Under the pieces are notes generated by a model. It saw only the letters and a list, made by a program, of their open reading frames with translations, did no database searches and was not told where the DNA came from. The translations under genes were made by a program, and so were the position numbers. A DNA stretch of 63,955 bases from Campylobacteraceae bacterium (GTDB lineage: Bacteria; Campylobacterota; Campylobacteria; Campylobacterales; Sulfurovaceae): positions 1 to 63,955 of the forward strand of contig JALXFN010000049.1 of assembly GCA_027068975.1 (NCBI GenBank), read 5' to 3'. Shown here piece by piece: positions 45,778 to 62,433 of this stretch (positions are counted from its first letter, which is position 1; each line of letters starts with the position of its first letter).

Positions 45778-48018
45778 ATGAATAAAAAACAAAGCATTGG
45801 GCTCTGTTCCCTACTCTTGACATCTGCTATTGCAAATGCGAATGTAAGTGGTATAGTATATCATGACTTACCTTTAAATGTGGCTAATTTAAACACATTT
45901 GGTACAAAAGACAGCAACGAAAAAGGAGTAGCTGGTATTACAGTAAAAGCTTATTCTGATTCAGGTACTACTACAACTACAACCGACGCAAATGGTTCAT
46001 GGTCTTTAGCCTCTACTGGTAAAGTAAAAGTAGAGTTTACAAATATTCCCTCTTATTTAAAAGAGAGTGCTGGTCAATCATCAGTACAGTTTATAGATGA
46101 TGGTACAACTACAGTAAATTTGGCACTTTATAACCCTGCAGAATATGCAGACTCTACTACAAACAGCGTTGCTATGACACTTCAACCTAACTCAGCGGTT
46201 GAAGGTGTAGTTTCAATTAAAACACTTGATAAAGATGACATTCCTAGTGGGGAAAACGACTCTCTTCCAGCAACAGCTAATGATACGACTCTAACACAAA
46301 CTGGTTCTATATGGGGTCTTGCTTATGATAGCTCGAATAAGACATTTTATGCTTCAGCTGTAGTTAGACGACATACTGCTATGGGAGATGAAGGTCCAGG
46401 TGCTATTTATCAAATAAAAGATGGAGTAGCTACTCTTTTTACAAAAGTTGAAAACGTAGGAACCATTCCATCAAATACAGAAAGAGCAATAACAGAAAAG
46501 CAAAATCACGACTCTCTTTTTAATGAAGTAGGACGTGTAGGACTAGGAGATATAGATATAAGTGCAGACGGTACAAAACTTTATACTATTAATTTAAATA
46601 CAAATCAACTGGTCGAAATAGATATTGCAACAAAAGCACAAAAAACTTATGATATTGGAAATCCATTTGGTGATTGTACAGATGTAAAATCATGGGGTAT
46701 CGGTCAAAACAGTGGTAAAGTTTATGTTGGTTCTGTTTGTACCACAGATACTACAAAGGGTGCATACATTTCAGAATTTAATGGCGCTTTATTTACCCCA
46801 TTCCATCAAATACCACTTGACATGGATGGTGAAACATCACTTTATAGTGCTGTTTTTGGTCATACAAATGGTAACAAAAGATGGAGAACTTGGATTACAA
46901 ATCCAACAGATTTATTTGATGGTTTTGGAACAAGAGTTAGTTTAGCAGCACCAATTCTTTCAGATATTGTTTTTGATGAAAACAGAGGAATGATTTTAGG
47001 CTTTACAGACCGTACAGCAATGCAAGCAGGGCTTCAAAATTTTAGTCCAGTTACTACAGATAATAAACCATACAAATATGATGCTGCTGGAGATATCTAC
47101 AAAGTATGTAAAACAGATGCAGGATATGTTAATGAAGGTGAAAATGGATGTGATAGAGAAGCAGATGAATTTTTTAATGAAGATGAGTGGAGCAATAATA
47201 TTGGAGAACATAAAGAGATAGCTTTAGGTGGATTAGCATATCTACCAGGTTCAAACAGTGTTTTAACCACTGCGTTTGACCCTGTGAATAGAGGTACCTA
47301 TGACTCCTCTGGAATTATATGGATGAATACAGAAGAGGGAAAAAGAACAGCAGCACAAAGAATGGTTGGAGGACATGCAGACCCAAGCTATCATGGTAAA
47401 GCAGGAGGAATAGGTGATATTGAAATTTTAACAGCTGCTGCTCCAACAGAAATAGGAAACAGAGTTTGGTTTGATGAAAATAAAAACTGTGTTCAAGATG
47501 CTAATGAATCAGGTATTGGTGGAGTAGAAGTTAGTTTATATGCCTCTACAGATTGTACAGGTATAGCTGAAGGAACAACAACTACAGATGAAAAGGGTAG
47601 ATATCTATTCCCTGTTGAGGCTGGTAAAGATTACAGTGTATGTATTAACAATATAGCTGGTCAATCTGTACTCAATGATAAAAAATTAACTTGTAATACA
47701 AAGGGTACATCTATCAATAACAGTGATGCTATAGTTGATGGTAGTGGTGCTAAAATAGCTGTTGCCCCATTAACAACGGGAGCGAATGATCACTCATTTG
47801 ACTTTGGATTTGTTAATAAAGATGCTAACACTCCTACCCCTGTTGTAGTACCAGAACAAAACAATACTGTAAACCATGGAGATGGTTCTTGTGATTGTCA
47901 TAGTTATACAGAAGACTCATCCCCTGCATTAAATGTATGGAGTACAATGCTACTTATAACGTTAACATCTTTTATGGCTTTTCTTTTCAGAAAAGAACTT
48001 GAACAACCAAGTAAATAG
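45778..48018 (+). CDS. Exported SdrD-B-like protein with beta-propeller and C-terminal sorting tail
   Basis: 746 aa. A signal peptide (ending IANAN) precedes an SdrD B-like domain (GIVYHDLPLNVANLN, KGVAGITVKAYSDSG, TTTTDANGSW). A central ~350-residue propeller-like region follows (LGDIDISADGTKLYTINLNT). A second SdrD B-like domain reads GNRVWFDENKNCVQDANESG. The C terminus has SSPALNVWSTMLL, a hydrophobic helix and FRKELEQPSK, a tripartite tail like IPTL-CTERM sorting signals. AAAGGA precedes the ATG. It is probably a surface-attached adhesin or matrix protein. Confidence 0.78.
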   Translation: MNKKQSIGLCSLLLTSAIANANVSGIVYHDLPLNVANLNTFGTKDSNEKGVAGITVKAYSDSGTTTTTTDANGSWSLASTGKVKVEFTNIPSYLKESAGQSSVQFIDDGTTTVNLALYNPAEYADSTTNSVAMTLQPNSAVEGVVSIKTLDKDDIPSGENDSLPATANDTTLTQTGSIWGLAYDSSNKTFYASAVVRRHTAMGDEGPGAIYQIKDGVATLFTKVENVGTIPSNTERAITEKQNHDSLFNEVGRVGLGDIDISADGTKLYTINLNTNQLVEIDIATKAQKTYDIGNPFGDCTDVKSWGIGQNSGKVYVGSVCTTDTTKGAYISEFNGALFTPFHQIPLDMDGETSLYSAVFGHTNGNKRWRTWITNPTDLFDGFGTRVSLAAPILSDIVFDENRGMILGFTDRTAMQAGLQNFSPVTTDNKPYKYDAAGDIYKVCKTDAGYVNEGENGCDREADEFFNEDEWSNNIGEHKEIALGGLAYLPGSNSVLTTAFDPVNRGTYDSSGIIWMNTEEGKRTAAQRMVGGHADPSYHGKAGGIGDIEILTAAAPTEIGNRVWFDENKNCVQDANESGIGGVEVSLYASTDCTGIAEGTTTTDEKGRYLFPVEAGKDYSVCINNIAGQSVLNDKKLTCNTKGTSINNSDAIVDGSGAKIAVAPLTTGANDHSFDFGFVNKDANTPTPVVVPEQNNTVNHGDGSCDCHSYTEDSSPALNVWSTMLLITLTSFMAFLFRKELEQPSK

Positions 48019-48065: not shown

Positions 48066-49538
48066 CTATCTAAACTCTTGCTCAAAACTTCTAAACTTTT
48101 TATCCAACTCTTCAATCTTGTTTTGATTAACCAAACTATCTTTTTCTAACGAGTAAGGATGCCACTCTACTTTGTGGAAAAAACTTTGCCAATAGCAGTA
48201 TGTTTCATAATCATAAGCACTCTCCCAAGCAATAAGATTAGACACTTCAAAAGTCTCCACGGTATAATCATACTCATTTTTTAAAATTTCAATAAGCTCT
48301 TTATCTTCTAATCTAGTTGATATTTTATTAAATATTTCTACATTACGACTGTAAACCGTACCAAATGGCTGACCATTAGAGGTAAAAACAATAATATCCG
48401 TAGCATCATTATTAATCAGTGACAAATACTTATCTTTATTATAGACAATACTCTTGTCATAAGAGCTAAAAAGAATAGAAGCGTTTTTATCTAAAAAACT
48501 TAATTTTTTATCACTACTTATGGTAGCATTAGGATACTCTTCTTTTAACAACTCTACTAAATTTTCATTTTTAAGATGTTTTTCTGAAAGCAAAAAAACA
48601 TTTTGTTCACTACTTGGCATAGAGTTAAGTACTTGTGTAATCATCGGTTTTCCAGAAATCTCAAGAAAAGGTTTTGCTTGACTGTACTCTTTGTAGCCAA
48701 CTTTTTCAAACTCTATGCTCTCATCAAGTAAAGAAATAACCGTTACACTATTGGCTTTAATAGATAAAGACTCTTTTGGCTTTTTGATTAAGTCAGCAAA
48801 ATAATCAGACCAATAGTTATAATCTTCTACCTCTTCAGGAACTCCCCACTGTAACATATGCTGAATATTATAAATTGAGACTTTTAAATTATCTTTTACC
48901 AATAAGTTATAAACCAATGAGACATAATATTCATCATTATAGGTAATTTTTTTATCAATTAGCTCTTTAAAATACTTCTTTAAAATACTACCTTTTTTAA
49001 AATAGTATGTTCCATTAGAGACATACTTCTCCATAGCAGCATCAATAGGCTCTTTCTCTTTAATCTCATCCATCCACTGCTCTGTATCGGTAGAGAGTGC
49101 ATAGTTTGTACCACTAAACATATGAGGATGAAATTTCTTATAGGAGACAACTGCACCATCGGCATCCCTGTCTCGTGTATGTTTTAAGAAATCTTCATAA
49201 TCCCAATAGATTCCAAAATCACAATAGTTAATAATAATCTCTTCATCATCCTCTATCAAGTCCAATATCTGTAACACTGTATATACCGGTCCTTCTGTAT
49301 GATTAGGAATCTCTATAATATTTGCATTGGGTTGAATTTTTAGCAACTCTTCTCTCATGTTTGTCTCTGCCAAGTGTTTAGCATTACAGATAAAAGTAAA
49401 CTTTGTCTCAGTTGGGAAGATATCACAAGCATGACCTACAATAGTTTTACCATTAATCTTAATTAGTGGTTTTGGTTCTTTGTATCCTGCTCGAACAAAT
49501 CTATTTCCTACTCCAGCCATAGGTATAATAATATGCAT
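48066..49538 (-). CDS. Nucleotidyltransferase with an internally duplicated, degenerate second domain
   Basis: 490 aa. Residues 1-248 are a sugar-phosphate/alcohol-phosphate nucleotidyltransferase: IIPMAGVGNRFVRAGYKEPK (the G-x-G-x-R loop and Lys), FICNAKHLAE, TEGPVYTVLQ, INYCDFGIYWD, SNGTYYFKKG, ending EEVEDYNYWSDYF. Residues ~265-480 repeat the fold: FEKVGYKEYSQAKPFLEISG, VFLLSEKHLKN, FGTVYSRNVEIF and YDYETYCYWQSFF, but the nucleotide loop is replaced by VTVISLLDESIE. So one active and one pseudo-domain are on one chain. It lies 20 bases after the HAD gene and probably activates a novel precursor for the surface glycan. Confidence 0.8.
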   Translation of the reverse strand: MHIIIPMAGVGNRFVRAGYKEPKPLIKINGKTIVGHACDIFPTETKFTFICNAKHLAETNMREELLKIQPNANIIEIPNHTEGPVYTVLQILDLIEDDEEIIINYCDFGIYWDYEDFLKHTRDRDADGAVVSYKKFHPHMFSGTNYALSTDTEQWMDEIKEKEPIDAAMEKYVSNGTYYFKKGSILKKYFKELIDKKITYNDEYYVSLVYNLLVKDNLKVSIYNIQHMLQWGVPEEVEDYNYWSDYFADLIKKPKESLSIKANSVTVISLLDESIEFEKVGYKEYSQAKPFLEISGKPMITQVLNSMPSSEQNVFLLSEKHLKNENLVELLKEEYPNATISSDKKLSFLDKNASILFSSYDKSIVYNKDKYLSLINNDATDIIVFTSNGQPFGTVYSRNVEIFNKISTRLEDKELIEILKNEYDYTVETFEVSNLIAWESAYDYETYCYWQSFFHKVEWHPYSLEKDSLVNQNKIEELDKKFRSFEQEFR

Positions 49539-49558
49539 TTTTTTTCCTTTTTTATAAA

Positions 49559-50233
49559 TTAAATTTTTATCTCATCAAATGAATAAACCTCTGTTACAAT
49601 ATTAGTATTATATAGTTTATTTTCCTTTTTTAAATTAATCCAAATTGCATCTATTCCTAAATTAGAAGCACCGACTATATCTTTGTTAAAGCTATCCCCT
49701 ATCATACAAACTTCATCTGGAATCAAGTTCATTTTTTTTAATGCAACCATAAACATATAAGGGTGCGGTTTTTCTCTACCTGCCTCTTCGCTTGTTACCA
49801 TAAGAAAACTATATTGGTCTAATTTTAACTGTTTAATTTTTCTATGTTGTATATGTGCTGTTAAATCTGTAAGCAAACAAAGTCTATTTTTATATTTTTC
49901 TAAAAACTCATAAATTCCATCAAAAGGTTTCATGGAAACCAAAAAGGTATCCCAATATAAGTTATAAACAGTTAAACTATATCTTAAAGGATTAAGCTCT
50001 AATAGCTCTAGCATCTTTTGAAAATAGAGTAGTCTGTTATGGGATGCAGCTGTATCTCCCAATTCAATTTGAACCAAACTTCTTGCTTTAGAATAGCATA
50101 TAGATATCTCTTCTTCTGATAGAGAAAACTTTTCTTTTAGAAACGTTATAACTCTATTTAAAGCTATTTTATGGCTATTGTCATAATCGTATAATGTATT
50201 GTCAATATCTAGTAATATGCCTTTATACTTCAT
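49559..50233 (-). CDS. HAD-superfamily phosphatase
   Basis: 224 aa. Motif I LLDIDNTLYDYD (nucleophile Asp plus Asp two residues on), a helical cap, motif II CLLTDLTAHI, motif III Lys in REKPHPYMFM and motif IV MIGDSFNKDIVGASNLGIDA are all intact, so it should be an active phosphohydrolase of the HAD-IA type. It lies three bases after the membrane-kinase fusion gene and 20 bases before the nucleotidyltransferase, suggesting that kinase, phosphatase and nucleotidyltransferase act in one activation pathway. Substrate unknown. Confidence 0.85.
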   Translation of the reverse strand: MKYKGILLDIDNTLYDYDNSHKIALNRVITFLKEKFSLSEEEISICYSKARSLVQIELGDTAASHNRLLYFQKMLELLELNPLRYSLTVYNLYWDTFLVSMKPFDGIYEFLEKYKNRLCLLTDLTAHIQHRKIKQLKLDQYSFLMVTSEEAGREKPHPYMFMVALKKMNLIPDEVCMIGDSFNKDIVGASNLGIDAIWINLKKENKLYNTNIVTEVYSFDEIKI

Positions 50234-50236
50234 CCC

Positions 50237-52228
50237 TTATCTATCCTCTTTTAATTTCTCACTGATAAGTAAGACCAGCATAAATTGAACAAAACCGTCA
50301 TAACCATGTTTCCATCTTGCATTTTTATCAATAATTTGGTCAACATTTAAAATAAAATTTTTAGACAACTGTGTATAATTATTTGTTGGTGCTTCTCTTA
50401 ACTCTATATATTGTGTTAATAAATCTTCATTGTAATCCCAAGTATAATTGGCTTTTAAGTTTTCTAAAATATGCTCAATATTAATACTTGCATCAAAAGT
50501 AATTTTTACTCCATGTGCTACTTTTTCTGGTTCACCTAAGCTAAAATCATGTAATGGAAAGTAATGAATAACAACATCTGCAAACTTCTTTTGAGGGTAA
50601 ATATACTTAGTAGTATCTTCAACTCTTGTTGCAATTTGTTCTAAAATCTTCTCTTTACTATAGCCTCTTTTTTTTGTATCACGTAAAATTTTCCAATGCC
50701 GTCTAAGTCTCTCATCTGTATCCATATAAACTTTTATATCTATAATTTTACGGAGTTTAGGAAGGTAAAATGGATGCAGTCCAGAAATAACAATAATCTC
50801 TTTTGGTAACAGTTTTGAAGGGGTCGTAAACTTACCAGTATCATGGTCATATTCACTTCTATAAATGGCTCTATTTTGCTTTAATTCATTTATTCCCTCA
50901 GCCTGTTTATGAATATAGTTTGCCTTTGGGTCTAAATGCGTAAATTTATCCCAATTTTTATCTCCTCTTTCCCATTTATGCTCTCCATCACCCTCTATTT
51001 CCAATAGTTTATCTCTAAAAATCAAAGTCAAGTTTGTAAGAAGCAAACTCTTTCCAACACCACTGTCTCCACCAATTCCTATTGCCAAATTTCTTTTTTG
51101 TCGATATATAGAGTTCATTCCAATACTATAACCATATGCAGATACTGTAATAAGGGTCATTACTTCAAGAAATGTATAGAAAATATTTTTTAAATTTTCA
51201 TTATCAACTTTAAAACCAATAGGCATATCTAAAAATTGTATAACTAAATCTTTTTCTTGATAAAGAAAGATAAAAAAAATCAAATAAAAAATAGTAAACA
51301 GAGAGTAAAAAGCAAGAGATTTTTCTTGATTTTCATGTTTTATAAGATAGATGGACAAATAAGGAACCATAAATACATACAGTTCAGGACGAGGAAAGAT
51401 AAATAGTATACTAACGGTAAACAATAGACCAAAATACAAATAAAGTAACTGGTCATTTACCTGTTTTTGATTAAAAAAGTAATAATAGACCAACAATATA
51501 GAAGACAAAGAAGCCAATACTTTTAGCTCTCCTATAGCAAAAGATGCTCCATTAAATGATTCTTTTAACAATAAAGTAACCATAGTAACAAACTCACCAT
51601 TTAATAGATAAGGTATATTAAGTACAATAAATATAGATAGAGCAATAAATATATATCTAACTGATTCTTTCAGATTTTCTTTGGTATAAATAAAATAAAA
51701 AATAATAGGTAACACAATTATCATATATATCTCTGAAGCCATTGCTAGTCCCATAAATAGAGCTGAATAGTACTGTTCTTTTTTTACGGTTAACATATAG
51801 GCAGTTAACAGTAATAATGATGTAGAGATAATAGTAAGATGAGTATTTATATATGTTATATAAATTATTATGGGGTTAAGAAAATAATAAATATATATTC
51901 TTTTTCTATAATCCACAAATAATTTAAGTAAAATATAGAGGATTATAAAATCAGCAAAAAGCAATGGTAATTTAAAAAATAGATTAATTAAAACTATAGA
52001 ATTAATATTTAAAAAGTTTACCATAGAGGCTAAAAAGGAATATATATATATCAATAATGAATGAAATGGATATATTAAAAATTCATTATTAAAATAAGAC
52101 TCTCCCCTATTGGTAGCTTCTAAAAAAGTCATAAACATATTATTTGTATAACTTGAGCTAAAGAGAGCAAGTAAAGCTATTTTCATTAACAACATAATAC
52201 CAATTTTCATACTAAATACTTTTAACAT
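50237..52228 (-). CDS. Polytopic membrane protein fused to a uridine-kinase-like P-loop domain
   Basis: 663 aa. Residues 1-375 have roughly 10-11 transmembrane helices and resemble GT-C glycosyltransferases in layout (an early loop NRGESYFNNEFLIYPFHSLL with a Tyr-Pro before helix 2), although the catalytic acidic residues are not certain. Residues ~380-663 are a phosphoribulokinase/uridine-kinase-like domain: Walker A GIGGDSGVGKSLLL (near residue 385), LEIEGDGEHKWERGDKNWDK, IIVISGLHPFYLPKLRKIID (Walker B region), a lid-like RLRRHWKILRDTKKRGYSKE and KFADVVIHYFPLHDF. I know of no characterised protein with this fusion. It may phosphorylate a precursor at the membrane for the adjacent HAD and nucleotidyltransferase. 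Confidence 0.8.
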   Translation of the reverse strand: MLKVFSMKIGIMLLMKIALLALFSSSYTNNMFMTFLEATNRGESYFNNEFLIYPFHSLLIYIYSFLASMVNFLNINSIVLINLFFKLPLLFADFIILYILLKLFVDYRKRIYIYYFLNPIIIYITYINTHLTIISTSLLLLTAYMLTVKKEQYYSALFMGLAMASEIYMIIVLPIIFYFIYTKENLKESVRYIFIALSIFIVLNIPYLLNGEFVTMVTLLLKESFNGASFAIGELKVLASLSSILLVYYYFFNQKQVNDQLLYLYFGLLFTVSILFIFPRPELYVFMVPYLSIYLIKHENQEKSLAFYSLFTIFYLIFFIFLYQEKDLVIQFLDMPIGFKVDNENLKNIFYTFLEVMTLITVSAYGYSIGMNSIYRQKRNLAIGIGGDSGVGKSLLLTNLTLIFRDKLLEIEGDGEHKWERGDKNWDKFTHLDPKANYIHKQAEGINELKQNRAIYRSEYDHDTGKFTTPSKLLPKEIIVISGLHPFYLPKLRKIIDIKVYMDTDERLRRHWKILRDTKKRGYSKEKILEQIATRVEDTTKYIYPQKKFADVVIHYFPLHDFSLGEPEKVAHGVKITFDASINIEHILENLKANYTWDYNEDLLTQYIELREAPTNNYTQLSKNFILNVDQIIDKNARWKHGYDGFVQFMLVLLISEKLKEDR

Positions 52229-52267: not shown

Positions 52268-53533
52268 TTAGTTGTTTAAGTTATAAAATTTATTTTCTTG
52301 CTTTCTTTTTTTATTCTCTATTATACTTTCCTTTTTATTCTCTACAATTGTATAGTGAAGCATTAGAGTTATCCAAAAAAGTGGATTTGAAAAATATATT
52401 TCAGAGGTTAATAAAAGTAATATAAGTAATACTATAGAAATGCCCATATAATCACCGTTCTTCCAATGATATCTACTATACATTGAAAATGACTTATACA
52501 TAAAAAAAAGCATTGTTATAAAAAAGGGTAAACCAAATCGTACAATTACATCGGTACTACCAACTGTTCTAATATCAACTACTTTTCCTGTACTATATAT
52601 CGTTGTAAATCTAGTAAGTTCATTGGGACCACGACCTATCAGCTCATGACCTTGAAAATCACGCCAGTCTTTAAGAATACTAGCGAATCTACCTGAATCA
52701 GCCTCTTCTAAATTTGGTAATTTTGCTAATTCACGAGCTTCTTCAAACTGTTTTTCAATTTTTTTACCTAAAAAGTCTAAATTTGTATAAGCGATATATC
52801 CTATAGATATTAAGGAAAAGAACAATATGATTTTTAGTAAAATATTTTTTACTTCTCGATTAAATATAAAAGCCAAAAACAAAAGAAGTACAATATAAGC
52901 TGTTGATGATTGTGTTGTTAATATAGCTATAATTAAAACAATATTTGTTCTATTGTACAATTCTGCTTTTTTCAAATAACTAATTATTAATGATAGTAGT
53001 AAAAAACCTCCAAATGCTCCCATTTCCCAAAATGCTCCTGAATTTCTCATCTCATATCCAGGTACGATAGTATATAAGCCCATAATACTGTATCTCGATT
53101 GCATATAGTCTCCTTCTTGTACATACAAAAGAAGCTTCTCAATTAAAATATCACTAAAGCCAGGTATCAATACAATTGGTATATAAAAAATAAAACTTAT
53201 TAAAGTAAGATAATACATAACTTTAACAAATTTATCAGGAAAATCCACAACACTTTTTAGAATAAAATAAGCTATTAAAATCCTAACAAAAACCCCTGCA
53301 AAAGTCAGAACTGGAAAAAAGTTGAATTTAAATGTTTGTAAAATCAGTATAACCATTAGTCCTACAAGAAAATAAACAAAACTAACATCAAATTTACTTT
53401 TTCTATAAAAAAACAATCCTGTTGCCAATATAAAAACTATAAACAGGCTTATTTTATTTTGAAAAACAATATTCCCTGATATAAAAATAAGTGCTAGAAC
53501 CATGAAGTAGTCTATGATTGTATTGATACGCAT
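52268..53533 (-). CDS. Wzy/O-antigen ligase-like membrane protein
   Basis: The start at 53533 (AAAGGAGAGAG upstream) is preferred over 53623, which would overlap the flippase gene. The product is 421 aa with about 11-12 transmembrane helices and a long periplasmic loop containing ADSGRFASILKDWRDFQGHE and GRGPNELTRF, the Arg and Gly-Arg-Gly-x-Asn-type signature of O-antigen polymerases and ligases. It probably polymerises or transfers the fucose-containing repeat unit made by this cluster. The C-terminal tail is very Lys/Asn-rich. Confidence 0.82.
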   Translation of the reverse strand: MRINTIIDYFMVLALIFISGNIVFQNKISLFIVFILATGLFFYRKSKFDVSFVYFLVGLMVILILQTFKFNFFPVLTFAGVFVRILIAYFILKSVVDFPDKFVKVMYYLTLISFIFYIPIVLIPGFSDILIEKLLLYVQEGDYMQSRYSIMGLYTIVPGYEMRNSGAFWEMGAFGGFLLLSLIISYLKKAELYNRTNIVLIIAILTTQSSTAYIVLLLFLAFIFNREVKNILLKIILFFSLISIGYIAYTNLDFLGKKIEKQFEEARELAKLPNLEEADSGRFASILKDWRDFQGHELIGRGPNELTRFTTIYSTGKVVDIRTVGSTDVIVRFGLPFFITMLFFMYKSFSMYSRYHWKNGDYMGISIVLLILLLLTSEIYFSNPLFWITLMLHYTIVENKKESIIENKKRKQENKFYNLNN

Positions 53534-53567
53534 TATAACTCTCTCCTTTAATTTTAACTCAATATGA

Positions 53568-54809
53568 CTATTGTGTTTTATACAATTGCTTTTGCTTAAT
53601 ATAGTAAACCCTAAAACCAACACTAGCTAAAGTATACACTACCAATGAAAATGATACGATATAAATATCCTTTGTTACATACGCTACTAATGTTATAAAT
53701 AAAACATAGATTATTGATGCATATATTAAACTGATATTAGCCTCTTTTATATACCCAAATGCAGCCAATAAAGGATATCCTAGTAAAGCATTAATAACAC
53801 CAAATAGAGTACCTGAAAACATTATTAAAAATATGTACCCCATTATCTCATTATTCATATTAAAAACTAATAATAAAATTTCTTTATAAAAATATATTAT
53901 AGGAATTAACAAAGCAATTGATGCTAAAACAACAAATAAAAAAGTTTTTTTGAAAAAAGTGATATTTTTTGTTCTACTCATATAAGGGTAAATGGTCTGT
54001 GCAACAATACCTCCTAAACTCATAAATGCATAGTAAAGTTTTTCAATCATAGAGTAATATCCTACAATAACATTTCCGAAAGACATACCAATAATAGTAA
54101 TAGCATAAAATCTACTACCATCATTGGCTACACGAGATAAAAAGAAAGCATAACTCTCTTTTAAATGCAAAATAAAATCTTCTCTATTGGGCATAACTAT
54201 CTTAATTTTATATAAACGAAATACCAACCATAGAGAATACAACCCTCCAATAACAGTACCAAGCGTATTTAAGAGAGGTACATATATATAATCATCACTC
54301 TCTTTTACAAGAACAAAAATCAAGATAGTAAATAAAACCCTAGAGACAAAATTAATATAGGTTATATATTTCATTCTCTCCATCCCCTGAAAAAACCATG
54401 TGGGAAAAAGTAAATTACCAAATACAAAACCAAATGTTACATAATAGAGCGTGATATGTTCACTTAATTTATCTACAAAAATCAGTAATAAAGTGAGAAC
54501 GATATAAGAAAAGATAAATAATAAGATTTTAATTAACATAACTGTTGAAAATATTTTTGATACTTTTTCTAAATTATCTCTATTTATAGAAATCTCTCTT
54601 GTTGCAGAGAGTTCAAATCCAAAACTTACCAAAATATTAAAATACATTATAATAGAGAGAGAAAAATTTACCAGTCCAAAGTTTTCAGCACCAAGTATCC
54701 GTACTAAATACGGTAGGGTAAATAGAGGTAAAAACATATTTAACGCTTGCAACACGGAGAGTGAAAAGAAATTTGATATTAAGGCTTTTTTATCCTCCAA
54801 TGCTGCCAT
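53568..54809 (-). CDS. Wzx-type polysaccharide flippase
   Basis: A 413-aa, 12-14-helix membrane protein of the MOP/RfbX family that moves undecaprenyl-linked repeat units across the inner membrane. It opens with the family pattern NFFSLSVLQALNMFLPLFTL, PYLVRILGAENFGLVNFSLS and YFNILVSFGFELSATREIS. A second conserved region is FVFGNLLFPTWFFQGMERMK. It lies eight bases after fcl and upstream of the polymerase gene, all on the minus strand. Confidence 0.9.
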   Translation of the reverse strand: MAALEDKKALISNFFSLSVLQALNMFLPLFTLPYLVRILGAENFGLVNFSLSIIMYFNILVSFGFELSATREISINRDNLEKVSKIFSTVMLIKILLFIFSYIVLTLLLIFVDKLSEHITLYYVTFGFVFGNLLFPTWFFQGMERMKYITYINFVSRVLFTILIFVLVKESDDYIYVPLLNTLGTVIGGLYSLWLVFRLYKIKIVMPNREDFILHLKESYAFFLSRVANDGSRFYAITIIGMSFGNVIVGYYSMIEKLYYAFMSLGGIVAQTIYPYMSRTKNITFFKKTFLFVVLASIALLIPIIYFYKEILLLVFNMNNEIMGYIFLIMFSGTLFGVINALLGYPLLAAFGYIKEANISLIYASIIYVLFITLVAYVTKDIYIVSFSLVVYTLASVGFRVYYIKQKQLYKTQ

Positions 54810-54817
54810 CTATTCTC

Positions 54818-55870
54818 TTACCTTTGCCCGATGTACCATGCATACATCTTCTTTATACCCTCTTCAAGCTCAACCTTATGCTTCCAACCCAAAGCATGAA
54901 GCTTAGATGGGTCTGTCAACTTAATCATAGTACCATCTGGTTTTTCAGTATTGAAATAGAATTCACCTTTAAATCCAATAATATCTTGAATAATATATGC
55001 CAACTCTTTAATAGAAATATCAATACCTGTACCAATATTGATATGCGTATTTCGTATCTCTTTATCATCTGGACTATAAGTATCTTTAAAGTCTCTATTT
55101 TCAAGTAAATAGACACAAGCATCTGCCATATCTTCACTGTATAAAAACTCTCTTCTGGGATTACCTGTTCCCCAAATTTCAACTTTTTTAGCATCTACAC
55201 CAAAACCAGTTAAATACTCTTTGGCTTCTTCTATAGTGTTTAGACCCAAATCAGCAATAACTTCCTTATCTTTACCCTCATTAAGCAGTTTTGCTAAATG
55301 AATTTTACGAATAAGTGCAGGTAAAACATGAGATTTTTCTAAATCGAAGTTGTCATTAGGTCCATAAAGATTCGTAGGCATTACAGAAATAAAGTTGGTT
55401 CCATACTGAAGATTATAAGATTCACACATTTTAATACCTGCTATTTTAGCTATGGCATAAGGCTCATTTGTATACTCCAATGGAGAAGTTAAAAGAGAAT
55501 CCTCAGGCATAGGTTGTGGTGCATTTTTAGGATAGATACAAGTAGAACCAAGAAAAAGTAATTTTTCAACACCAGACTTATAAGCCTGATGAATTACATT
55601 GTTCTGAATTTGAAGGTTCTCATAAATAAAATCTGCTCGATAGACATTATTTGCAACAATACCACCTACCTTAGCAGCAGCCAAAATGACATATTCTGGT
55701 TTTTCTATTTGAAAAAATTCTTCTACAGCATTTGCATCTAAAAGGTTTAATTCTCTATGCGTTCTATAAACAAGATTGGTATAACCTTTTGCTTCTAAGT
55801 TTTTAACTATAGCAGAACCAACTAAACCTCTGTGTCCTGCTATATATATTTTACTCCTCTTGTCCATCAT
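54818..55870 (-). CDS. fcl: GDP-L-fucose synthase
   Basis: A 350-aa SDR epimerase-reductase that converts GDP-4-keto-6-deoxymannose to GDP-L-fucose with NADPH. Features are IYIAGHRGLVGSAIVKNLEA, AAKVGGIVANNVYRADFIYE, FLGSTCIYPKNAPQPM, catalytic YTNEPYAIAKIAG (Tyr-x3-Lys), PTNLYGPNDNFD, SHVLPALIRKIH and WGTGNPRREFLYSEDMADAC. About 30 residues longer than E. coli Fcl because of an insertion around residues 195-230 (NEGKDKEVIADLGLNTIEEA). It is followed closely by the flippase gene and preceded by gmd. Confidence 0.93.
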   Translation of the reverse strand: MMDKRSKIYIAGHRGLVGSAIVKNLEAKGYTNLVYRTHRELNLLDANAVEEFFQIEKPEYVILAAAKVGGIVANNVYRADFIYENLQIQNNVIHQAYKSGVEKLLFLGSTCIYPKNAPQPMPEDSLLTSPLEYTNEPYAIAKIAGIKMCESYNLQYGTNFISVMPTNLYGPNDNFDLEKSHVLPALIRKIHLAKLLNEGKDKEVIADLGLNTIEEAKEYLTGFGVDAKKVEIWGTGNPRREFLYSEDMADACVYLLENRDFKDTYSPDDKEIRNTHINIGTGIDISIKELAYIIQDIIGFKGEFYFNTEKPDGTMIKLTDPSKLHALGWKHKVELEEGIKKMYAWYIGQR

Positions 55871-55876
55871 ATAATC

Positions 55877-56998
55877 CTATTCAAAATAATTCATAATATC
55901 ATAACCACCATCTTTTAGATATTGGTCTTTTGTCATAAGCTTCAAATCACTCTCCATCATATCGTTTACCAATGATTCAAGTTTATACTCACGCTTCCAA
56001 CCAAGTTTAGTTTCAGCTTTTGTAGGGTCACCAAGAAGCAGGTCAACCTCTGTTGGTCTAAAGTATTTAGGGTCAACAGCAACAACTTCTCTTCCAATTT
56101 CTAGTTGATAATCAGGATTAGAACAAGATACTACATAGGCTTTCTCATCAACACCTTCCCCTTTAAATTCTAACTCAATACCAGCATAAGCAAATGACAT
56201 TCTGACAAAATCTCTTACTGTAGTAGTTTGACCTGTAGCAATAACCCAATCTTCTGGCTCATCAGCTTGAAGAATTAACCACATCATTTTGACATAATCT
56301 TTTGCGTGTCCCCAGTCTCTTTTTGCATCTAAGTTTCCAAGGTAAAGTTTATCTTGAAGTCCAAGTGCAATTTTACTTGCAGCTCTTGTGATTTTTCTCG
56401 TTACAAAAGTCTCCCCTCTCACTGGTGATTCATGGTTAAACAAAATACCATTACAAGCGAACATGTCATAAGCTTCTCGGTAGTTTACGGTAATCCAATA
56501 AGCATACATTTTAGCTACAGCATAAGGACTTCTTGGATAAAAAGGTGTTGTCTCACTCTGTGGTGTCTCTTGCACTTTTCCGTATAGTTCAGAGGTACTT
56601 GCTTGATAGATTCTAGTTTTTTTTGTAAGACCAAGTAGTTTAACAGCCTCTAAAATTCTTAGTGTTCCTGTACCATCAGCATTTGCTACATACTCTGGAG
56701 TCTCAAAAGAGACAGCAACATGACTCATAGCAGCTAAGTTATAAATCTCATCTGGTTGAGTCTCTTGAATAATTCGAGTAAGGTTCATTGAGTCTGTCAT
56801 CTCACCATAGTGTAAGATAAGGTTTCTATTTTCTACATGTGGGTCTTGGTATAAGTGGTCAATTCTATCAGTATTAAAAAGAGACGATCTTCTTTTTAAA
56901 CCATGTACTATATAGCCTTTTTTAAGTAAAAATTCTGCTAAATAAGATCCATCTTGTCCTGTAATTCCTGTAATTAATGCTACTTTTTGTTTTGCCAT
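55877..56998 (-). CDS. gmd: GDP-mannose 4,6-dehydratase
   Basis: The start at 56998 (GGAGAAAACA upstream) gives 373 aa. It makes GDP-4-keto-6-deoxymannose, the substrate of Fcl. It has the Rossmann motif [39 protein letters not shown], the active-site [37 protein letters not shown] (Tyr-x3-Lys), [20 protein letters not shown] and [20 protein letters not shown]. It lies six bases before fcl and 48 after manC: a complete GDP-mannose to GDP-fucose branch. Confidence 0.95.
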
Positions 56999-57046
56999 TG
57001 TTTTCTCCATATTATTTTTGTTTTTATTGTTTTTTATACTATTAAT

Positions 57047-58414
57047 TTATCTTTGAAAATCATCTTCGATTCTAACGATATCATCTTCACCTGTATACTC
57101 TCCCACTTGTGCTTCAATAAGTACAACTGGTATTTTACCTTCATTTTCTAATCTATGTATTTCCCCCATTTTAATATATGTTGACTCATTTGGTCGTATA
57201 AGTTTCTTCTCTTCACCAACTGTTACAGTTGCTGTACCACTTACTACTATCCAATGCTCATTTCGATGAAAATGTTTTTGCAAAGATAGTCTTTTACCCT
57301 GATTAACAATTATTCTTTTAATCTTATATTGGTTAGTAGAGAGTAAAACCTCATATGTTCCCCATGGTCTATGTGCTAAAGTATGTACTTTCGTTAAATC
57401 AGAATTCTTCTTTTTTAACGCTGCTACAACATTTTTAACCTTTTGCGTAGACTCTTTTTTTGAAATCAATAAAGCATCATCTGTATCGATAATAACCAAA
57501 TCTTCTATATCTATAGTCGCTACTTGTTTGTTAGAAACAATAAGATTATTTGAAGAATCAATAGCTATTGCTTTAGAATCTAAAGGTGTCATCTCTTCAA
57601 TCTCATTAGATAGAGCATTAAAATCACCTAAATCACTCCACATTATATCTGATGGAATCACTTTTACCCTCTCTGATTTTTCCATTACAGCATAATCAAT
57701 ACTATCTTCTGGAATATTTAGCATATCATCTGTTTTAATTTTAAACTGCTTATCTGAAATATTTAACTTTTTAGAAAATGCTACTTCTGATGTTTTATAT
57801 ATTTCTGGTGAGTATTTTTTTAGCTCCTCTAAGAAAACACCTGCTTTAAACATAAACATTCCACTATTCCAATAGTAATTCCCTTGTTCAATATAAGATT
57901 TTGCTGTCTCTAAATCAGGTTTCTCTTTAAAACTTTTAACATCTAAACCCTCTGCTTCAATATATCCAAATCCTATCTCAGGGTAAGAGGGAGTAATTCC
58001 AAAAGTAACTAAGTTATTATTTTTTACTTCTACCTTAGCTTGTAAAATTACTTTTTTATATGCTTCTTCATCTTTAATTAAATGGTCAGAAGGTGTTATT
58101 AACACAATTTCTTCTGCATCTAATGCCATACAAGCTAAAGCAATAGCTGGAGCTGTATTTCTTCCTACTGGCTCCAATAAATATAAAGAGCTATTATCTT
58201 TCTTTAAAACCTCTTCTTCTTGCTCTAGTGCTAAAAAATACTGTTCACTATTTGAAACAATAAAATTTGAATCACAAAGAAGAGAGTTTCGCTCTAAAGT
58301 TAGCTGAAACAACGATTTATCATTAAATAACTTTATAAATTGTTTTGGATATAAAGTCCTACTTAAGGGCCAAAGTCTCGTTCCTGAACCACCACATAAA
58401 ATAATATTTATCAT
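57047..58414 (-). CDS. manC: Mannose-1-phosphate guanylyltransferase / mannose-6-phosphate isomerase
   Basis: A bifunctional 455-aa enzyme. The N-terminal nucleotidyltransferase has IILCGGSGTRLWPLSRTLYP, YLLEPVGRNTAPAIALACMA, LITPSDHLIKDEEAY, SFKEKPDLETAKSY and YWNSGMFMFKAGVFL. The C-terminal type II isomerase cupin has HRPWGTYEVLL, KRIIVNQGKRLSLQKHFHRN and EHWIVVSGTATVTVGEEKKL. It supplies GDP-mannose to gmd. No phosphomannomutase gene is in this cluster. It is the most upstream gene of the fucose unit; the 135-base A/T-rich gap before it probably holds the promoter. Confidence 0.95.
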   Translation of the reverse strand: MINIILCGGSGTRLWPLSRTLYPKQFIKLFNDKSLFQLTLERNSLLCDSNFIVSNSEQYFLALEQEEEVLKKDNSSLYLLEPVGRNTAPAIALACMALDAEEIVLITPSDHLIKDEEAYKKVILQAKVEVKNNNLVTFGITPSYPEIGFGYIEAEGLDVKSFKEKPDLETAKSYIEQGNYYWNSGMFMFKAGVFLEELKKYSPEIYKTSEVAFSKKLNISDKQFKIKTDDMLNIPEDSIDYAVMEKSERVKVIPSDIMWSDLGDFNALSNEIEEMTPLDSKAIAIDSSNNLIVSNKQVATIDIEDLVIIDTDDALLISKKESTQKVKNVVAALKKKNSDLTKVHTLAHRPWGTYEVLLSTNQYKIKRIIVNQGKRLSLQKHFHRNEHWIVVSGTATVTVGEEKKLIRPNESTYIKMGEIHRLENEGKIPVVLIEAQVGEYTGEDDIVRIEDDFQR

Positions 58415-60612: not shown

Positions 60613-62433
60613 TTATTCTACATTATGACTCTCTATAATTTCATGAAATAGCCCACTTAAGTAACGACTTCCTGTTAAGGTTAAATGCCCATTGTCAAAA
60701 TAGAGTGGCAGACCCTCTTCATTGATATAAGCACACTCATTTTTACAAAACAGAGGAGCAGTCTCATAGATTTTAAAATTTTTAGATTTTATTTTTGACA
60801 AAAAAGCAAAATTTTCTCTATTTTTTGACATATACTCCTTTTTTGTTTGCATAGGTAATGCTACATCATCATGTTTATGCTCCCACAATGCCTTAGGAAT
60901 ATTTATTTTATCCCAATAAGGAACAGGCATAATAAAGTCTACATTTATATGGTGTTTATCTGCTAAAATAGTTAAAGTTTCGATATTTTTTAATACTCTA
61001 GGAAGTTTAGCAAATGAGTAATGCAAGACAATCGTATCTATCTTATACTCCAAGGCATCATCAATAATCTCTTTAGGTCCAATTTGCCCTTTAAACATTG
61101 GTTCATTAGGGACAATAAAAAAAACTTCACTGTTTAACTTCTCTGCCTCTTTTGCAAATGTCTGCTTAATACTATCAGCATGACTGTTACCAATAAGCAT
61201 AATTTTCTGTTTTACCATATCAGCAGATAAATCGGTTAATTTACAATAGTGACTGTTTGGTTCCAAAATACGTTTCAGTTTACCACAACGATAAACATCT
61301 CTATCTTTAAATGCATTAGCAATCATTAGCTCTTTTTTAGAATATAAACTTTTTTGAATGCTTAGACCTCCAAATGCCATAGAGATAATGAGTAGAGGAG
61401 CAACCCATAAAAAAGCTAAAAGATGTTTTATCTTTTTAGAACCCACTTCTACGAGATGATACATCGCTACTGATGCCAAAATAATCAATATAAAAAGTAT
61501 GCCCCTGTCAACCATACTCTCTGGTTTTAGTTTTGTACCAGAAAAAGGTGTGTAGAGATAGAGAACAATAATAGGAAAATGTACCAAATAGATAGAGTAG
61601 GAGTATTGACCAAGCTTTTCAAGGATTGTACCTACTTTTGAGAACTCTAAACTTTTCAAAAGTCCAAAAGCAAGTACCAGCCCTGTTGCCAAAGCAATAA
61701 TGAGTGCATAGAGACCAGGGTGTCCTTTCAGATAATTCATTGCCTCCCCATCTACATGAAGAAGAGGAATAGAGAAGATAATAACAAATCCAATGGTACC
61801 TAAATATCTGTATCTATCTTGACGAACATTACCCGAATCTGTAAAATAATAAGCAATTCCATAACCAATCAAAAACTCCCAAATTCTCAAAGGCATCATG
61901 AAAAATGAAGTTTTTGGAGAGATACCTAAAAGAGTAAAACAGAGTAGCAGAGAGCTTAGTAAAATAATCATAAAAAGATAGCGATTTAATTGAAAGAAGA
62001 AAAAGAGTATCGGTATAATCAGATAAAATTGAATCTCAACACCCAATGACCACAAATGCAAAAGAGGGTTAAATTCAGCCTTACTAAAATAGGAATTTTG
62101 TAACCAAAACCCTATATTTGAGCTAAAACTACTGGCATAGATACTTTGTGAAAAAACTTGAGCATACTCATTTGGAGTTACTATAAAAATGGCTGAACAG
62201 ACAGTTAAAAAGGTTACCACAAAATAAGCAGGAAGTAGACGTTTTGCTCTACGTGCAAAAAATGCTTTTTTATTGTCATGAGTATAGAGTATTGCCATAA
62301 GGAATCCACTAATAACAAAAAATACATCCACCCCTAAAAAACCACTTTGAAAGAGTGTAAACCCCAAGTGAAACAGAACCACAAGCATAACAGATATGCC
62401 TCTTAATATTTGTATATCTTTTCTATAATGCAT
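60613..62433 (-). CDS. OafA/YrhL-type O-acyltransferase with SGNH domain
   Basis: 606 aa. Residues 1-355 are an acyltransferase-3 membrane domain (~10-11 helices): RKDIQILRGISVMLVVLFHL, GFLGVDVFFVISGFLMAILY, FFARRAKRLLPAYFVV, HLWSLGVEIQFYLIIPILFF and YSIYLVHFPIIVLYLY. A periplasmic SGNH-type esterase/transferase domain follows, with block I IMLIGNSHADSIKQTF and block V DNGHLTLTGSRYL (Asp-x2-His). It probably O-acetylates the surface polysaccharide made by the neighbouring cluster, by analogy with OafA and peptidoglycan acetyltransferases. It is separated from bioB by 76 bases. Confidence 0.9.
   Translation of the reverse strand: MHYRKDIQILRGISVMLVVLFHLGFTLFQSGFLGVDVFFVISGFLMAILYTHDNKKAFFARRAKRLLPAYFVVTFLTVCSAIFIVTPNEYAQVFSQSIYASSFSSNIGFWLQNSYFSKAEFNPLLHLWSLGVEIQFYLIIPILFFFFQLNRYLFMIILLSSLLLCFTLLGISPKTSFFMMPLRIWEFLIGYGIAYYFTDSGNVRQDRYRYLGTIGFVIIFSIPLLHVDGEAMNYLKGHPGLYALIIALATGLVLAFGLLKSLEFSKVGTILEKLGQYSYSIYLVHFPIIVLYLYTPFSGTKLKPESMVDRGILFILIILASVAMYHLVEVGSKKIKHLLAFLWVAPLLIISMAFGGLSIQKSLYSKKELMIANAFKDRDVYRCGKLKRILEPNSHYCKLTDLSADMVKQKIMLIGNSHADSIKQTFAKEAEKLNSEVFFIVPNEPMFKGQIGPKEIIDDALEYKIDTIVLHYSFAKLPRVLKNIETLTILADKHHINVDFIMPVPYWDKINIPKALWEHKHDDVALPMQTKKEYMSKNRENFAFLSKIKSKNFKIYETAPLFCKNECAYINEEGLPLYFDNGHLTLTGSRYLSGLFHEIIESHNVE

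Follow-up and report, generated by a model that had tools for sequence, protein, structure and literature searches.

A phosphoribulokinase-like kinase, a HAD phosphatase and a nucleotidyltransferase in a surface-glycan locus: a candidate bacterial module for nucleotide-ketose synthesis

Next to a run of surface-glycan genes, the window (the whole stretch of 63,955 nucleotides analyzed here) contains three adjacent genes that encode a membrane protein with a kinase domain, a HAD phosphatase and a nucleotidyltransferase (NTase), which raises the question of which precursor these enzymes might activate and whether they belong together at all. An earlier note on this DNA proposed that the trio is a precursor-activation pathway; the sizes and coordinates that it gave for the three minus-strand genes, and the spacing of 3 and 20 bases between consecutive genes, are exact (Table 1). 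Our main reading, to which we assign a probability of roughly 0.4, is that the trio represents the window's share of a conserved module for surface glycans that would convert a ketose phosphate to a nucleotide-activated ketose.

Table 1. Coordinates of the trio, its domains and motifs, and the neighboring glycan genes in the window
Feature	Position	Strand	Basis
663-aa fusion protein, membrane + PRK-like kinase	50237..52228	-	relatives in Campylobacterota, Lachnospirales, Alphaproteobacteria, E. coli plasmids
Membrane domain, GT-C-like (weakly supported), residues 1-376	51101..52228	-	hydropathy and sub-threshold Pfam matches of relatives
PRK-like kinase domain, residues 377-663	50237..51100	-	NCBIfam, PDB match, fold search, dN/dS
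P-loop GDSGVGKS, residues 387-394	51047..51070	-	alignment
EGDGEHKWER motif, residues 412-421 (catalytic-base D414; sugar-phosphate residues H417, R421)	50966..50995	-	alignment with 6kev
HAD phosphatase, 224 aa, all motifs intact	49559..50233	-	motifs and Pfam/NCBIfam
Tandem nucleotidyltransferase (NTase), 490 aa	48066..49538	-	Pfam and alignment
NTase domain 1, intact, residues 1-255	48774..49538	-	motifs, dN/dS
NTase domain 2, degenerate (signature loop and internal stretches lost)	48066..48773	-	alignment, dN/dS
Co-directional glycan genes upstream of the trio: wzy-like, wzx, fcl, gmd, manC	52268..58414	-	Pfam/NCBIfam; order kept in sister genome

The surface-polysaccharide setting claimed in the earlier note holds: the neighbors of the trio include Wzx (Pfam Polysacc_synt, 3e-48), a Wzy-like protein with only a sub-threshold match (Wzy_C, 0.007) and the GDP-fucose genes manC, gmd and fcl, and other copies lie in surface-glycan loci or with glycan-transfer genes. 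In a sister genome of the same genus, the entire block is collinear with the window. Comparison of the two genomes reveals purifying selection on every part of the trio (dN/dS of 0.043 for the kinase domain, 0.20 for the membrane domain, 0.23 for the HAD, and 0.051 and 0.24 for NTase domains 1 and 2, respectively); given this selection on each gene and the presence of a 91%-identical fusion protein in another genome, the trio is beyond chance. Adjoining the trio, in the sister genome as well, is a plus-strand gene (45778-48018) for a 746-aa secreted-looking protein with an SdrD B-like domain (1.2e-25) and, toward its C terminus, a hydrophobic stretch and then a charged tail. Close to the glycan genes, a minus-strand gene (60613-62433) encodes a 606-aa acyltransferase-3/SGNH fusion that may O-acylate the same polysaccharide.

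Domains of the three proteins

The fusion protein is polytopic and carries a P-loop (GGDSGVGKS) in its C-terminal half, as described previously, but the kinase, originally taken to be uridine-kinase-like, resembles phosphoribulokinase (PRK), the kinase of plant carbon fixation. The domain matches the Pfam PRK/uridine-kinase family (3.9e-35) and scores 188.5 bits (1.6e-55) with the NCBIfam model PRK07429, under the curated cut-off of 236 bits, compared to 77 and 67 bits with uridine-kinase models; the nearest solved structures are phosphoribulokinases (PDB 6kev, 4e-35). Alignment of 6kev with 12 module kinases, 8 of Form A and 4 of Form B (the two forms are described below), shows that D414, H417, R421, Y460, H462, K513 and R516 are kept in all 12, and that the D, H and R of the EGDGEHKWER motif are shared with 6kev as well. 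The counterparts of these conserved residues in PRK include the catalytic Asp/His pair (PMC9978339) and residues that bind ribulose 5-phosphate (Ru5P) or ATP in the M. hungatei and R. sphaeroides enzymes (PMC5241800). At the acidic position of the PRK motif IVIEGLH, every Form A kinase has S, A or C, whereas Form B keeps the acid; because of this loss in Form A and the score below the curated cut-off, we use the label "PRK-like". A low-confidence AlphaFold2 model of residues 370-663 (pLDDT 53) aligned with PRKs over the full length in a Foldseek search (E 4e-17, about 304 columns) and with uridine kinases over only about 190 columns, and VIA-align of the same model gave Z of 13.7 for PRK versus 9.1 for uridine kinase. 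Judging from sequence and model, the kinase domain is a full-length PRK-like domain. The residues and the weak fold model further indicate that a PRK-type substrate pocket, on which the pathway idea of the earlier note depended, is retained.

Two other identities of this kinase were rejected. A uridine kinase is disfavored by the HMM scores, the residues and the fold search, and a role in the Calvin cycle by the absence of RuBisCO from all six carrier genomes searched, with positive control searches. A small tree left the relationship of Form A, Form B and PRK unsettled.

The N-terminal ~375 aa of the 663-aa protein are hydrophobic, with 9 segments in a simple 19-residue hydropathy scan. The proposal that this half is GT-C-like is weakly supported, through sub-threshold Pfam matches of the membrane domains of relatives (GT87, 9e-4; ALG3, 7e-5); a full-length AlphaFold2 model built from 3 sequences was too poor (pLDDT 40) to bear on this half.

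The HAD phosphatase (Pfam HAD_2, 8e-21) is indeed intact: the four HAD motifs (DxD, T/S, K, GDxxxxD) are present, and D9, D11, T122, K155, G179, D180 and D185 are invariant in 12 members. Its best NCBIfam model is the haloarchaeal ribulose-1,5-bisphosphate (RuBP) 5-phosphatase NF053830, which matches 12 of the 12 module HADs; the window protein scores 155 bits against a cut-off of 330, and other related HAD models score not far below, so that this match can be considered a lead rather than proof. The 490-aa NTase (Pfam NTP_transf_3, 1.6e-9) is present as claimed, with the amendment that it comprises two tandem domains, the second one degenerate. Domain 1 keeps the GxGxRF...PKP loop, the YCDF motif and the metal-binding Asp in all members aligned; the signature and internal stretches of domain 2 are lost in the window and sister copies only. 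In modules elsewhere, the tandem NTase is about 550 aa long, or else is encoded by two separate genes (loci L041 and L042).

Occurrence and composition of the module

Sequence comparison delineates a recurrent module that consists of the GT-C-like/PRK fusion, the HAD, a class II aldolase and two NTase domains, usually with GtrA, a GT2 of ~235 aa and a GDPD-like protein of ~200 aa, and often with a second large membrane protein. These genes co-occur in at least 10 loci of four bacterial groups. The core proposed in the earlier note was thus right, in that the kinase, HAD and NTase genes are kept together in distant bacteria, but the set was incomplete, given that the aldolase and usually the GDPD-like protein, GtrA and GT2 also belong to it.

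Form A, with the fusion, was identified in Campylobacterota, Lachnospirales, Alphaproteobacteria and a plasmid segment of E. coli. The full fusion is encoded in 3 of 60 related genomes (the window's own, the sister genome G032, and G038), with a match to the kinase part only in one more (G042); in the Campylobacterota phylum sample, a further fusion was found in G153 and a broken copy in G423. In the latter (L024, 7431-9445), the kinase-fusion gene is split into two frames, and the NTase, aldolase and HAD genes are still open. Four of the 392 genomes of the order containing the Lachnospiraceae locus have the fusion. Among the module loci, one (L006) has its best HAD match on a different contig. 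The fusion is found on plasmids of E. coli, Azospirillum brasilense and Hirschia baltica; among 5426 E. coli genomes, the module is present in two, plasmid-borne in both. On the E. coli ES3 plasmid (L049, 2901-15077), the eight-gene module is flanked by two IS26 copies and adjoins a fragmentary AIDA-repeat adhesin gene, and the same segment recurs on another E. coli plasmid, one from human stool. No match was detected in phage records.

In Form B, detected in eight genomes of the phylum sample, seven from one genus and the eighth from a different one, the kinase match lies in a shorter frame that lacks the membrane domain. In the four loci that were read, HAD and kinase form a single soluble protein of about 432 aa, next to the GDPD-like protein, a class II aldolase of ~241 aa and a two-domain NTase; three of these loci are plainly glycan or capsule loci, and the fourth is at a contig start. 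This fusion, good evidence for a common pathway of HAD and kinase, also shows that the membrane domain is dispensable for the kinase step.

The best named solved relatives of the module aldolases are fuculose-1-phosphate aldolases. E110, H123, H125 and H186, which we take to be the FucA active-site positions (the catalytic Glu and three Zn-binding His), are invariant in 10 module aldolases, including that of the window's genome, which is encoded on a separate contig (C48) and is 65% identical to the G038 aldolase; the sister genome also encodes this enzyme (90%). The GDPD-like protein is present in both forms of the module (L008, 4775-5365; L022, 6513-7106) and has no match in Pfam or NCBIfam, with HR, ExD and HD/HN positions conserved. 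In the window's genome and its sister (G000 and G032), no match was found for GDPD, with the same query positive in two other genomes, or for GT2, in a search that had no positive control; GtrA and GT2 are not adjacent to the window trio. From these comparisons, the window copy is a reduced module, with NTase domain 2 degenerate, the aldolase off-locus and GDPD and GT2 not found.

A possible pathway and its alternatives

In the proposed scheme, the kinase would use a ketose phosphate, of which a pentulose 5-phosphate is the most likely, and phosphorylate its O1 to yield a 1,n-bisphosphate; the HAD would remove the distal phosphate, leaving a ketose-1-phosphate; the aldolase, encoded elsewhere in the window's genome, may make, cleave or stereochemically edit this compound; and NTase domain 1 would turn the ketose-1-phosphate into a nucleotide-activated ketose. 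Where the module is complete, GT2 and GtrA would place the activated ketose on a lipid carrier and flip it, and the GT-C-like proteins would attach it to the glycan; the window has a single module-specific candidate for this transfer, the fused GT-C-like domain. There are precedents for both halves of the scheme: in haloarchaea, a HAD phosphatase and then a FucA-like aldolase act on RuBP and ribulose-1-phosphate (Ru1P) (PMC9700705), and an NTase that makes a nucleotide-ketose is known from CDP-6-fructose (PMC10918830). A pentulose substrate is favored because the Ru5P-contacting residues are conserved in the module kinases. In the fully specified version, which is less likely than not, kinase chemistry of the Calvin-cycle type would have been recruited by bacteria for glycan synthesis: the PRK-like kinase, the HAD and the NTase would take a pentulose 5-phosphate through the 1,5-bisphosphate to a nucleotide-activated 1-pentulose, the module would be mobile and supply its own genes for lipid-carrier transfer, and the kinase of Form A would be tethered to a GT-C-like transferase. 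Several points weigh against the proposed scheme: if kinase and HAD suffice to yield the ketose-1-phosphate, there is no obvious need for the aldolase; a nucleotide on the C1 hydroxyl of a ketose would be a non-standard GT2 donor; the scheme does not account for the GDPD-like protein and NTase domain 2; and the kinase and HAD fall short of the curated PRK and RuBP-phosphatase cut-offs, with the IVIEGLH acid missing from Form A. The alternative order, with the aldolase acting first and the NTase on the distal phosphate, appears less likely because it would merely remake pentulose 5-phosphates that are available anyway.

The strongest competitor, a tentative but credible one, retains the logic of the module and changes the kinase substrate to another phosphorylated sugar (a hexulose, heptulose, tetrulose or aldose phosphate) or a phosphorylated polyol, so that the product would not be a pentulose. 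The kinase, HAD and aldolase are all below or outside the curated families, the acid of IVIEGLH is lost in Form A, and the CDP-6-fructose (PMC10918830) and heptose pathways illustrate other substrates in glycan loci; all the PRK residues that contact Ru5P are, however, retained in the module kinases. It is improbable that the window copy is a relic, unable to make the product after the loss of GDPD, GT2 and NTase domain 2. The decay of NTase domain 2, the relocated aldolase, the missing GDPD and GT2 matches in both genomes (for GT2, in a search lacking a positive control) and the broken kinase gene in a related genome (L024) would fit such a loss, whereas the strong purifying selection, chiefly on the kinase domain and NTase domain 1, and a reduced arrangement common to two species, both of which keep the aldolase, argue against it.

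It is quite improbable, too, that the HAD acts after transfer, removing phosphate from a transferred phosphosugar in the manner of the HAD domain of Cj1432, which acts after ribose-5-phosphate transfer from PRPP in a Campylobacter capsule (PMC12096443): the fusion partner of the Form B HAD is the kinase and not a transferase, and no PRPP-using transferase was seen in the module loci. A part in central metabolism, that is, catabolism of pentose bisphosphates or nucleoside salvage, is highly improbable despite the action of a HAD and a FucA-like aldolase on RuBP and Ru1P in haloarchaeal nucleoside degradation (PMC9700705), considering that NTase and glycan-transfer genes accompany the set time and again, on plasmids as well as in several phyla, that NTases have no place in catabolism, and that the HMM scores and fold search disfavor a uridine kinase.

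If the reading of the trio as part of a nucleotide-ketose module is right, several phyla would share a new donor-sugar pathway, present in plasmid and capsule loci among others, and PRK-like enzymes would have a function beyond carbon fixation. Genes in glycan loci that bear annotations such as uridine kinase, phosphoribulokinase or HAD would be explained, and glycans would be expected to contain ketose residues, which can be checked directly in structures.

Comparison with known systems

The module is widespread in bacteria and apparently undescribed. Searches of the open-access literature (capsule xylulose/ribulose, PRK with polysaccharide genes, aldolase with GtrA and NTase) yielded no published description and no characterized equivalent, in agreement with the earlier note. 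The module kinase shares with the phosphoribulokinases of the Calvin cycle and of archaea the full-domain fold, the P-loop, the catalytic Asp/His pair and the Ru5P-contacting residues; it differs in its fusion to a membrane domain or a HAD, its location in glycan loci of carriers without RuBisCO, the absence of the IVIEGLH acid from Form A and, for the window kinase, a score below the curated cut-off. The succession of kinase, HAD phosphatase and nucleotidyltransferase is already known from heptoses, in the nucleotide-heptose pathway (HddA/HddC, GmhB-type HAD). Relative to that logic, the new elements are a kinase of another fold family (PRK-like, not GHMP or PfkB-type), its fusion to a GT-C-like domain and the additional aldolase; no GmhA-type gene is present in the complete modules that were read.

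The non-carboxylating pentose bisphosphate pathway of haloarchaea (PMC9700705) likewise encodes a HAD and a class II aldolase together with a source of sugar bisphosphate, but it is catabolic and obtains its RuBP through ribose-1,5-bisphosphate isomerase, whereas the module has a PRK-like kinase, NTases and glycan-transfer genes. In the CDP-6-D-fructose/CDP-6-D-glucitol pathway of C. jejuni HS:5 (PMC10918830), an NTase also activates a ketose phosphate for the capsule, although without a kinase, HAD or aldolase and with an NADPH reductase as the following enzyme. Finally, the complete modules resemble the GtrA/GtrB/Gtr lipid-carrier systems in having GtrA, GT2 and GT-C-like membrane proteins, and differ from them in that they supply the enzymes of donor synthesis themselves and join a GT-C-like protein to a kinase.
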